IMG/VR virus record: IMGVR_UViG_3300045999_006059
Coordinates: 1 to 40,343 of that record
Origin: a virus
DNA length: 40,343 nt
Strand: one strand, 5' to 3'
Program-made: the position numbers and the translations under genes
The notes under the pieces: model-generated
What the model was told of the DNA's origin: nothing
The model's database searches: none
What the model saw: only the letters and a program-made list of their open reading frames with translations
Shown here: one piece after another, positions 31,832-35,207 of the stretch
Layout: every line of letters starts with the position of its first letter
How positions within the stretch are numbered: position 1 is the first letter of the stretch

Positions 31832-32974
31832 ATGGCTACCCCGCCCCTGTCGCGGGAACTGATGATTGAAACAGTAGAGGCATATCGAAGAAACGGGAAC
31901 AACAAAGAGGCGGCGGCGCGAGAGTTGGGCATCCCGTCCGGAACCTATTGCAACCGCTTTCGCAAGGCACAAGCGGCGGGGTTGCTACTGACCGAAGGCC
32001 AGCGCGAAAGCATCGAAGCGGCCAAGCTGGACCCGATGACCGCGCAAGGCGGCTGGATCATCACGGACAAGGACGGCGAAATCATCCGCCGATCTACGCG
32101 GTGGAAAGCGGACGCCCCGGAGGATGATCCTGAGCGCATTCTAGGGGCCATCCGTGACGGGCTGGCGGACTTACCCCGCGCAATCGACTTACCCCCTGCC
32201 AGCGGCCCTGACGCGCTGTGCGCCGTGTTCCCTGTCGCTGATCTTCACATCGGGATGCTGGCCGATCAAGAGGAGGTCGGGGCCGATTGGGATACGAAGA
32301 TAGCGCGGCGCGTGTTTGAAGAAACCTTTGCGCGCATTGTCAGCATGACGCCCCCGGCAGGAACAGCCATCCTGGCGCAACTCGGGGATCTTACGCATAA
32401 CGACGATCAACGAAACATCACGCCCCAAAGCGGCCACCAGCTTGATGTGGATAGCCGATATTTCCTTATCCTGCGGCGGGCTGTAGCGGCCATGAAAGCG
32501 GCCATAGAAGCCCTGCGGCGGCGGTATCCGATGGTCATCTATCGCGGTTGTCGTGGAAATCACGACATCACTGCGCACTATGCCGTCACGCTTGCGCTGA
32601 TGGAACACTACCGGGACGTTCCTGGCGTCCAGATCATTGACCACGCGGGCGAGTTCTACTTGCACGAGTTCGGCGCAAACATGATCCTGTTGCACCACGG
32701 CGACCGGGCCAAGCCTGACAGGCTGGTTCATTTCGCGGCGGCTGAGTGGCCGGAGGTATGGGGCCGAACCCGCTACCGGATTGCGCTGTCTGGGCATGTT
32801 CACCATGCGCGGGCGGTTGAAGTCGGCGGCATGTCGTTTGAATCGGTCGGAACCATTATCCCGCGTGACGCCTATGCACATTCGCACGCTTATTCAGCGC
32901 GGCGGGCTTTGGTCAGCATCACGCTCGACCGGGACCAAGGCGAAGTCAGCCGTGCGCGGGTGAATATCGCCTAG
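31832..32974 (+). CDS. Metallophosphoesterase with N-terminal helix-turn-helix (380 aa)
   Basis: Calcineurin-like fold: DLHIG (D137, H139), GDLTHND (D186), RGNHD (N243, H244), LLHHGD (about 287-291) and SGHVHH (320-325), a full metal-ligand set. The first 50 residues form a helix-turn-helix (NNKEAAARELGIPSGTYCNR) like small transposase/resolvase DNA-binding heads. It begins immediately after the secreted-protein stop. Such fusions are common in phages and are presumed phosphodiesterases or nucleases acting on DNA; the substrate is unknown. Confidence 0.85.
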   Translation: MATPPLSRELMIETVEAYRRNGNNKEAAARELGIPSGTYCNRFRKAQAAGLLLTEGQRESIEAAKLDPMTAQGGWIITDKDGEIIRRSTRWKADAPEDDPERILGAIRDGLADLPRAIDLPPASGPDALCAVFPVADLHIGMLADQEEVGADWDTKIARRVFEETFARIVSMTPPAGTAILAQLGDLTHNDDQRNITPQSGHQLDVDSRYFLILRRAVAAMKAAIEALRRRYPMVIYRGCRGNHDITAHYAVTLALMEHYRDVPGVQIIDHAGEFYLHEFGANMILLHHGDRAKPDRLVHFAAAEWPEVWGRTRYRIALSGHVHHARAVEVGGMSFESVGTIIPRDAYAHSHAYSARRALVSITLDRDQGEVSRARVNIA

Positions 32975-33096
32975 GCCATTTGGCATCGTTCCCGGCATTT
33001 TGTGCCACTTTCGTTAACACGTAACCGCGTACATGTCAGCGAAACCGGGTTTGACTAACATGAAATCGCAATCTGCGACATCAACAGGACATCGCT
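32975..33096 (+). other. Intergenic region before the amidase gene
   Basis: 122 bases. It contains an 11-base palindrome AAACCGGGTTT (33042-33052), a -35-like TTGACT (33051-33056) with no acceptable -10 at 16-18 bases, a small TCGCA/TGCGA hairpin (33066-33078), and the AGGA site for the amidase. A separate lysis promoter is possible but not demonstrable. Confidence 0.4.
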
Positions 33097-33711
33097 ATGA
33101 CCTATGAAATCCGCGCCAGACAGGCGCGATGTGCCGCGCTTGGCTTTTGGCCGGGGCCTATCGACGGCAAGGATGGCAGGCGCACCCAAGCGGCCTATGC
33201 GGCGGCTGTAGCGTCCCAAAGAATGAAGGGCATGCCCTTTCAGCATCCGTCCGGCTTGACCCGTATTCACCTACACTGGACGGGCGGGGGGCATAGCGCC
33301 AACGCAACTGACCGCAAGTCGTATCATGTCGTGATCGAAGGCAGCGGCAAGGAAATCATCTGCCATCCCGAGACGGAACGGCTGGCGCATACCTGGAACG
33401 CCAACGGCGGCGCGATTGGCATCAGCATGGCGTGCATGGCAGGCGCGGTCGAGCGGCCTTTTTCTTGGGGATCAGCCCCTATGACCACGGCACAACTGCA
33501 CGGGCTGGCAAAAGCGGCGGCGCGGCTGGCGGGGCAATACGATATCCCGATCACGCCTTACTCTGTGCTTACCCATGCCGAAGTGCAGCCCGTTCTTGGG
33601 ATCACCCAACGCAACAAGATTGACATCATGTGCTTGCCGGGAATGAACGAAATGCAAGACCCGATAAAAATCGGGGACAAGATACGGGCAATCATTGTCT
33701 CGTATCTGTGA
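33097..33711 (+). CDS. Endolysin: PG-binding domain + N-acetylmuramoyl-L-alanine amidase
   Basis: A 204-aa endolysin. Residues 5-45 form a short peptidoglycan-binding domain (GFWPGPIDGKDGRRTQAAYA). The amidase domain follows: IHLHWTGG (H60), SYHVVIEGSG, TWNANGGAIGISM, SVLTHAEV (H160) and KIDIMCLPG (D176), a plausible zinc-ligand set for Amidase_2. It cleaves the stem peptide from the glycan. The last 22 residues after CLPGM are not the original end: a second, homologous C-terminus lies downstream of the inserted HNH gene, so this end was replaced on insertion. Confidence 0.9.
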   Translation: MTYEIRARQARCAALGFWPGPIDGKDGRRTQAAYAAAVASQRMKGMPFQHPSGLTRIHLHWTGGGHSANATDRKSYHVVIEGSGKEIICHPETERLAHTWNANGGAIGISMACMAGAVERPFSWGSAPMTTAQLHGLAKAAARLAGQYDIPITPYSVLTHAEVQPVLGITQRNKIDIMCLPGMNEMQDPIKIGDKIRAIIVSYL

Positions 33712-33728
33712 ATCTGTTATGATTCAAC

Positions 33729-33763
33729 GGTGTAGAGGCAGATTGGCGTCCGCCTTCTACACC
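33729..33763 (+). promoter_or_regulatory. Stem-loop in the HNH gene leader
   Basis: A 10-bp stem (33729-33738 with 33754-33763, one G-U pair) with a 15-base loop in the 84-base leader between the amidase stop and the HNH start. Free-standing homing endonuclease genes in phages often carry leader hairpins that limit translation. A palindrome GTTCGAAC also overlaps the ribosome site region just before the ATG. Confidence 0.5.
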
Positions 33764-33795
33764 TAACCATAGGTCCGAACATTGGAGGTTCGAAC

Positions 33796-34314
33796 ATGGC
33801 TCGCAAAGCCTTACCAGCACAAGACGTGCTGTTGCAACTTTTGAATTATGACCCCGAAACCGGGGCGCTGACATGGCGCGAACGTCCTGATCATCCTGCA
33901 TTCACAACGCGATGGGCTGGAAAACCTGCCTTTACCGCTCTTGAGCGTGGATACAAGCAAGGCCGGATTTTCATGGAATTGCACTATGCGCACCGGATCA
34001 TCTGGCGGATGATGACTGGCGAGATTGCTCATGACGTTGACCACATCAACGGCGTTCGGTCTGACAACCGATGGTCAAATCTGCGATCTGTGACGCGGGC
34101 GGAAAATCTTCGCAACAGGCGCTTGGGGCCAGCCAACACGAGCGGAACGCACGGCGTGCAGTTTACTCAATGGGGTGCTTGGCAGGCATACATTGGGCAC
34201 CAAAGCCGATCAATTTGCCTCGGTAGCTTCAAAACCAAAGAAGAAGCAATAGAGGCTCGGAAACGCGCTGAACGCGATCTTGGCTATCACGAGAACCACG
34301 GGCGCACAGCTTAA
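33796..34314 (+). CDS. HNH homing endonuclease with AP2-like DNA-binding domain (172 aa)
   Basis: The nuclease half carries AHRIIW (H66) and the HNH core VDHINGVRSDNRWSNLR (residues 81-97, D82/H83/N85). The C-terminal half (TSGTHGVQF, WQAYIGHQSRSICLGSFKTK, about 115-148) is an AP2-like domain, the standard pairing of phage free-standing homing endonucleases. GGAGG lies 8 bases before the ATG. It splits the amidase/holin lysis pair and is flanked by two versions of the amidase 3' end, so it is a recent mobile insertion. Slightly lower GC than its neighbours. Confidence 0.9.
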   Translation: MARKALPAQDVLLQLLNYDPETGALTWRERPDHPAFTTRWAGKPAFTALERGYKQGRIFMELHYAHRIIWRMMTGEIAHDVDHINGVRSDNRWSNLRSVTRAENLRNRRLGPANTSGTHGVQFTQWGAWQAYIGHQSRSICLGSFKTKEEAIEARKRAERDLGYHENHGRTA

Positions 34315-34398
34315 ATCCCCGGCATGACGCAACCCGGCAACCCCAACGCGGTCGGGGATCGTATTCGTCAAATCATCCTTGGCTATGCAGGCCAGTAA
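34315..34398 (+). pseudogene. Stranded original C-terminus of the endolysin gene
   Basis: Right after the HNH stop and in the same frame, 27 codons plus a stop read IPGMTQPGNPNAVGDRIRQ and IILGYAGQ. Aligned without gaps to the endolysin end from its PGM (residues 181-203), 11 of 23 positions are identical (PGM, P, GD, I-R, II, Y). This is the pre-insertion amidase 3' end, displaced about 650 bases downstream. It has no ribosome site of its own, so it is probably no longer translated. Confidence 0.8.
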
Positions 34399-34414
34399 CC
34401 CGAAAGGCAAACAC

Positions 34415-34660
34415 ATGTCATTCCTTCCCCCCGAAAACACGGCCCCCGATCTGCCGCCCTTGCCGATCTGGCAAGCCCGGTCGTTTTGGCTGACCGTCAC
34501 GGCGTTCTTTGGCTCAATCCTGCCATTGCTTGGCATCAACTGGCCGTGGGTCAATGACCCTGCAACCGTGGATACCATCATGCAAGTCGTGTCCGGTGTT
34601 GCCGCTGTGCTGGCCTTGCGCGAGCGTGCAAACCCGCATCGGCGGTTGACGATGAAATGA
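34415..34660 (+). CDS. Holin-like membrane protein (81 aa)
   Basis: Two hydrophobic segments (about 24-43, FWLTVTAFFGSILPLLGINW; and 52-66, TIMQVVSGVAAVLAL) separated by a short polar turn, with a basic tail (RERANPHRRL). The same layout is found next to amidases in alphaproteobacterial phages. GAAAGG precedes the ATG. It would form membrane lesions that release the endolysin. Class II topology by inspection. Confidence 0.78.
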   Translation: MSFLPPENTAPDLPPLPIWQARSFWLTVTAFFGSILPLLGINWPWVNDPATVDTIMQVVSGVAAVLALRERANPHRRLTMK

Positions 34661-34860
34661 CCCTGTCAGAATTTGCGCATTGGTTTTGCTACGGTCGCGC
34701 AGGCATGAGCCTGTGCGGTCGATCCTATCGGCTTCAACATATCCCTTTCTGGGCCGCATGGCGTCGGGTTTTTGACGCCTTAGCGTGGCCGTTTCAGCGC
34801 AGCCATTGCCGCCAGTCGTACTTCTACCACATTGAAAAACAGGCAGGACCGCCAAGTTAG
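34657..34860 (+). CDS. Last rightward gene, Cys/aromatic-rich small protein (67 aa)
   Basis: Starts MTLSEFAHWFCYGRAGMSL; rich in Trp, Phe, Tyr, Arg and Cys (AWRRVFDALAWPF, CRQSYFYH), probably membrane-peripheral. ATGA-coupled to the holin. Its stop overlaps, by 4 bases, the stop of the last leftward gene, with no terminator between the converging operons. Function unknown; lysis-linked by position. Confidence 0.68.
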   Translation: MTLSEFAHWFCYGRAGMSLCGRSYRLQHIPFWAAWRRVFDALAWPFQRSHCRQSYFYHIEKQAGPPS

Positions 34861-35207
34861 TCAGCGGTCGTGGTGGGGGCATCGGTTGCGGTGAGGGCGG
34901 CGTTTATGGCGCGGGCGCGATCTACATAGCGGGCAAGTTCGGTCAACAATTCGGCCATAGCTTGCGACCCGACCGCGTTCCATGTGGCTGAACCGCCAGA
35001 TAAAGCCGCGACTTTGAAGCGGCCAATGGCTGTGTGCATTACGGCTTGCCAGCCGTCGTCAAGCGGCTTTGTCAGCGCACCCCGCAACCGTTCGTTCTCG
35101 GCCTTAAGTGCGTCGAATAGATCGCCCCGGACGTAGGTAGCAAATGTGTCAACGCCATGCGTGACGATCCTGATCTTCATCCGTTCCGGTGCATCCTGGC
35201 GGGTCAT
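34857..35207 (-). CDS. Last leftward gene, hypothetical (116 aa)
   Basis: The true start is MTRQDAPERMKIRIV at 35207, overlapping the Lar-like stop (ATGA). It has a helical centre (FDALKAENERLRGALTKPL) and an Ala/Thr-rich tail. End of the leftward operon. No recognised family. Confidence 0.65.
   Translation of the reverse strand: MTRQDAPERMKIRIVTHGVDTFATYVRGDLFDALKAENERLRGALTKPLDDGWQAVMHTAIGRFKVAALSGGSATWNAVGSQAMAELLTELARYVDRARAINAALTATDAPTTTAD

Follow-up and report, generated by a model that had tools for sequence, protein, structure and literature searches.

A duplicated amidase 3' end around an HNH endonuclease gene in a viral genome, and its counterparts in phage RNA polymerase genes

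The interrupted amidase gene and its second tail

In the window (the whole stretch of 40,343 nucleotides of viral DNA that was analysed), an endolysin gene is followed by a short leader, an HNH endonuclease gene and a second stretch resembling the end of the endolysin (Table 1). The endolysin, an amidase of 204 residues whose C-terminus is now probably a replacement tail, is 52-67% identical to its relatives across its whole length. The HNH_3 domain (PF13392) of the nuclease scored 62.2 bits against a curated cut-off of 24.8, the protein matched the HNH endonuclease family phrog_99 in PHROG (E=1.9e-58), and the conserved D-H-N residues were retained in the alignment; the nuclease residues look intact. 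The gene is a separate open reading frame 3' of the amidase stop, outside any intron or intein, and is in this sense free-standing. The amidase, the HNH gene and the second tail all lie on the plus strand and in one frame.

Table 1. Features of the amidase-HNH locus in window coordinates
Feature	Position	Strand	Basis or remark
Endolysin, N-acetylmuramoyl-L-alanine amidase (Amidase_2); interrupted host gene	33097..33711	+	Pfam Amidase_2 E=2.8e-11; PHROG endolysin E=2.6e-39
Probable imported replacement 3' end of the amidase	33613..33711	+	Left boundary approximate, 33590-33613
Leader separating the replacement tail from the HNH gene	33712..33795	+	Strong hairpin at 33729-33763
HNH_3 endonuclease, 172 aa; presumed free-standing homing endonuclease	33796..34314	+	Pfam HNH_3 E=3.4e-17
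Probable stranded native 3' end of the amidase, 27 codons and stop	34315..34398	+	Family-tail HMM; DNA nearness to relatives

The hairpin in the leader has a folding energy of -28.4 kcal/mol (z=-2.36 compared to shuffles), and the sole Rfam match of the leader was weak and below threshold. Hairpins control the expression of some T4 nuclease genes, and the one in the leader, being located just 5' of the HNH gene, may control HNH expression.

The second tail follows the HNH stop codon directly, with zero gap, reading stop-IPGMTQPGNPNAVGDRIRQIILGYAGQ-stop, and it has no start of its own that preserves the whole stretch. Aligned without gaps to the amidase end (LPGMNEMQDPIKIGDKIRAIIVSYL), it is identical at 11 of 23 positions. 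Both this homology and the in-frame position had been pointed out in the first-pass annotation and were confirmed, as was a separate tail behind CLPGM in the amidase, which counts 21 residues instead of the 22 given there. The duplication was assessed with a profile HMM of the amidase C-termini of 31 distinct intact relatives, the window sequence being excluded. In a six-frame search of the window the stranded stretch ranked second (E=2.6e-7), after the amidase itself (4e-27) and ahead of the next stretch (1.4). The tail repeat scored 63, compared to 43 for the best of 1279 mismatched pairs of tail and downstream sequence from other HNH loci, and the duplicated tail is not due to chance.

In the intact relatives, which end in LPGMxxPxDPIxVGDRIRxxv, the amidase continues uninterrupted through the insertion point. 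No relative of the window HNH gene was found in their loci by tblastn, and none of those examined had a duplicated tail without an HNH gene. As had been predicted, the amidase ends of HNH-free relatives resemble the stranded copy more than the fused tail: over 63 aligned nt, all 16 relatives tested (mutually non-independent) were closer in DNA to the stranded copy; for L001, 45/63 nt were identical to the stranded copy and 32/63 to the fused tail. The nearest HNH-free relatives of the window phage are approximately 65-67% identical. The evidence that the stranded copy is native and the fused tail imported is therefore strong but short of proof, the closest relative being 67% identical.

The extent of the imported segment can be estimated from the DNA. 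In blastn alignments, similarity to most relatives ended at 33590-33611, and the codon-aligned identity to L001 was 62-73% up to residue 172 and 42-50% beyond. The G+C content was 60-65% in the amidase body, 46-50% in the replacement tail, 46-47% in the leader, 51-59% in the HNH gene and approximately 58% in the stranded remnant, i.e. lower in the upstream tail, leader and HNH gene than in the flanks. Because similarity to the relatives stops and G+C steps in this way, the imported segment probably spans approximately 33600 to 34314, and the replaced tract probably starts before the PGM codons, in the region of 33590-33613. The amidase of the window phage has Ile at a position where Trp is nearly invariant, within or beside the imported tract, a substitution that counts against the replacement-tail reading.

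HNH genes are found in phage group I introns, and the HNH gene could in principle reside in a self-splicing intron, with the downstream tail as second exon. This reading was rejected, as no Rfam intron family, and hence no group I intron core, was detected at E up to 1 in positions 32900-34900. Moreover, the remnant follows the HNH stop immediately, leaving no room for a 3' intron core, the upstream tail resembles the C-termini of the family and ends in a stop codon of its own, and splicing leaves the recoded tail of Sulfitobacter phage EE36phi1, described below, unexplained. An intron at this locus is hardly credible.

Recurrence among HNH loci and the RNAP1 cases

To screen for recurrence, 161 distinct HNH open reading frames from viral contigs and phage records were taken, and in each case the end of the gene preceding the HNH gene was compared with the sequence directly behind the HNH stop; a match counted only if it terminated at both stop codons. 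An initial screen, in which the reading-frame tails were defined loosely, had returned high scores at G+C-rich loci; these were shadow frames and disappeared under the stop-codon rule. Four of the 161 clearly had the tail repeated behind the HNH stop, with scores of 74, 63, 55 and 53 compared to the control maximum of 43 (n=1279 mismatched), namely EE36phi1, the window, a metagenomic N4-like phage (L151) and Agrobacterium phage OLIVR1, while the other 157 showed no such duplication. In EE36phi1, L151 and OLIVR1, all N4-like phages, the insertion is in RNAP1, which encodes an RNA polymerase subunit, and the HNH gene is of the same family as that of the window. The architecture is accordingly present in four loci and two gene families; the strategy, which the first-pass annotation had considered for phage lysis genes, is not specific to them. 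The independent origins may number as few as two or three, as two of the three RNAP1 cases have one element in common.

A scan of 5218 gene tails for any end duplicated across an insert recovered the same four cases, the window weakly (27.4 bits). Its other returns were neighbouring HNH gene pairs with a similar end, and repeats; two candidates (L016 and L017) turned out to be antisense or shadow frames. At two further loci (L087 and L213), similar gene ends recur at several spacings and look like repeated genes. No duplicated tail was found at the second HNH-like gene of EE36phi1 (orf51), nor at any of 13 HNH loci among 293 genomes from the Paracoccus order.

The direction of exchange is clearest in EE36phi1, for which the close sisters V12 and DSS3phi2 lack the HNH gene. 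A breakpoint scan against V12 placed the breakpoint 121 nt before the RNAP1 stop (lnLR 22.7), with 91% identity over the 480 nt preceding the last 120 nt and 68% in the last 120 nt, in which 23 of 40 codons differed synonymously. The stranded remnant, on the other hand, was identical to the native V12 end at 52/54 positions and to its own upstream tail at 42/54. Since the HNH-free sisters are 91% identical in the gene body, the direction can, on this sequence evidence, be regarded as settled: the downstream copy is native, while the upstream copy was imported and is recoded. A comparable breakpoint was located at 118 nt in L151 relative to L159 (lnLR 22.2), with identity of 90% before and 64% after it. 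Between EE36phi1 and L151 the recoded tails were 87% identical, the gene bodies 76% and the HNH proteins 74%. The presence of a shared recoded tail on two different RNAP1 backbones indicates that a unit consisting of a recoded gene end of approximately 120 nt and the HNH gene entered two RNAP1 lineages, moving as one. In OLIVR1 the duplication covers a shorter end (11 residues), and no HNH-free relative is close enough for the native copy to be assigned. The initial proposal that the HNH gene arrived with a substitute 3' end and left the old end stranded is thereby supported, with the DNA of the relatives favouring it 16/16 in the window and the RNAP1 analogue being decisive.

Alternatively, the amidase 3' end could have been tandemly duplicated, or a second amidase gene could have been present, with the HNH gene entering between the copies or replacing most of the second gene, and no replacement tail travelling with it. 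The window tails, at 11/23 identical residues, are diverged enough to allow time for such a history, and a search for a donor of the window tail found none. Against it, the upstream tail, leader and HNH gene share a G+C content below that of the flanks, the tail moved together with the HNH gene onto different bodies in EE36phi1 and L151, and a duplicated tail lacking the HNH gene was absent from the intact relatives examined, making this history quite improbable.

Two further observations were made around the RNAP1 genes. EE36phi1 (L138) rejoins V12 and DSS3phi2 (L146 and L147) only approximately 750 nt beyond the stranded end, and several small genes of these two sisters are absent beside the insertion. 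In addition, the last 120 nt of RNAP1 in the HNH-free L146, L148, L149 and L159 are 84-89% alike, compared to 77-78% in the preceding body, which points either to a constraint acting on the DNA itself or to repeated conversion at what is presumed to be the target.

Junctions and a possible route of insertion

In all four loci the HNH coding sequence adjoins the remnant, with the HNH stop codon at the joint. In EE36phi1 the HNH TGA is found within sequence shared with native RNAP1, out of the RNAP1 frame (GGTCGCTGACTACAAC compared to native GGCACTGACTACAAC). Such a common right edge argues against the random joints of ordinary mosaic recombination, by which a foreign amidase end and a neighbouring HNH gene would have been joined with the HNH gene as a passenger or a passive boundary mark. 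Exchange boundaries in phages do often bear nuclease genes (PMC10448857), and lysins have been exchanged at this very place: L098, rejected as an empty site, has an unrelated lysin in this position (L098 1-963) beside a neighbour gene 94% identical to that of the window (34418-34660), from which it follows that lysin genes are swapped here. The left breakpoints in the two RNAP1 recipients (121 and 118 nt) are nevertheless, like the right edge, too regular for random joints, and mosaic recombination as the source of the arrangement is very improbable. L099 and L100 were likewise rejected as empty sites, their upstream genes being related but not accompanied by this amidase.

Very probably, then, the insert is a homing endonuclease of the free-standing HNH type that moves together with a recoded 3' end of its target gene, and the most likely process is intronless homing with built-in target repair. 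In an allele that lacks the HNH gene, the enzyme would make a cut or nick close to the 3' end of the target, possibly at the PGM codons in the window, and repair would copy the donor, the gene body serving as the left arm and the stranded end, together with the gene that follows, as the right. The last 100-120 nt of the recipient reading frame would be swapped for the recoded version of the donor, leaving the HNH gene behind the recoded end, either directly or, as in the window, behind a short leader. The host protein would retain a C-terminus through the recoded end, the hybrid amidase presumably remaining functional, and the new allele should escape further cutting, since recoding has altered the upstream copy and only a truncated copy is left downstream.

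A homing endonuclease faces the problem of targeting a conserved sequence while sparing the invaded gene, to which introns and inteins provide an answer by splicing. Phages appear to answer by bringing along a rewritten end of the gene, and this may in addition conceal the site from the enzyme. We favour, with some reservation, the view that these loci represent a phage class of homing endonuclease, a self-immunising gene-end cassette of synonymously recoded 3' end and HNH gene which allows a selfish gene to reside in an essential coding sequence with the help of neither intron nor intein, and which arose independently of the fungal mitochondrial version. As EE36phi1 and V12 are isolated phages that have the same gene in its filled and its empty state, respectively, cutting, protection and transfer are directly testable. 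Diverged C-termini and orphan gene tails beside phage HNH genes may mark past invasions of this kind.

Comparison with known mobile endonuclease genes

PMC2988022 describes the mob and seg genes of T4-like phages, which encode free-standing homing endonucleases of the HNH and GIY-YIG families and spread by intronless homing. The present genes resemble these in being phage nuclease genes outside introns and inteins, with repair and co-conversion of flanks as the expected mode of spread (PMC2988022). The mob and seg genes are mostly intergenic, with cut sites hundreds or thousands of bp away, whereas the HNH genes studied here lie within the end of a reading frame and are accompanied by a substitute end. 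The same source also covers genes split after nuclease insertion, mobE in nrdA of Aeh1 and mobA in T4 gene 60, which likewise place a homing endonuclease inside an important phage gene. There, both gene parts are still made and reassemble (PMC2988022); in the loci studied here, a full substitute end completes the upstream part, and the downstream part has been left stranded.

The available parts of PMC2988022, PMC10448857 and PMC12724721 do not report any phage gene with a replacement tail, and no phage precedent was found in the open-access literature, although one may exist elsewhere. The genome paper of EE36phi1 lists the HNH gene behind RNAP1 (ORF 8) as an additional endonuclease, and the available part of its text makes no mention of the duplicated end (PMC2784036).

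The closest parallel is found in fungal mitochondria, where mobile endonuclease reading frames with a C-terminal duplication occur in atp6 of Allomyces and in atp6, atp9, cox2 and nad3 of Glomus (PMC3630166); partial duplications have also been described (PMC6279837). The likeness to the fungal genes (PMC3630166) extends to an endonuclease near the 3' end, a foreign C-terminus fused to the gene, a native C-terminus stranded downstream, a stranded end closer in DNA to the empty-allele relative, and differences that are mostly synonymous. This C-terminal duplication is supported by distant relatives in the window and by close empty alleles in EE36phi1. The fungal endonucleases belong to the LAGLIDADG or GIY-YIG families, reside in mitochondria and are sometimes in frame with the host gene, and hybrid transcripts have been shown (PMC3630166). 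In contrast, the phage nucleases are of the HNH_3 type, are found in tailed phages as separate genes behind a stop codon, and are described here from sequence. Since the nuclease is HNH_3, the phage system works like the fungal type but is not a member of it by descent. The element can be described as the phage HNH version of a kind of mobile element that is already known.
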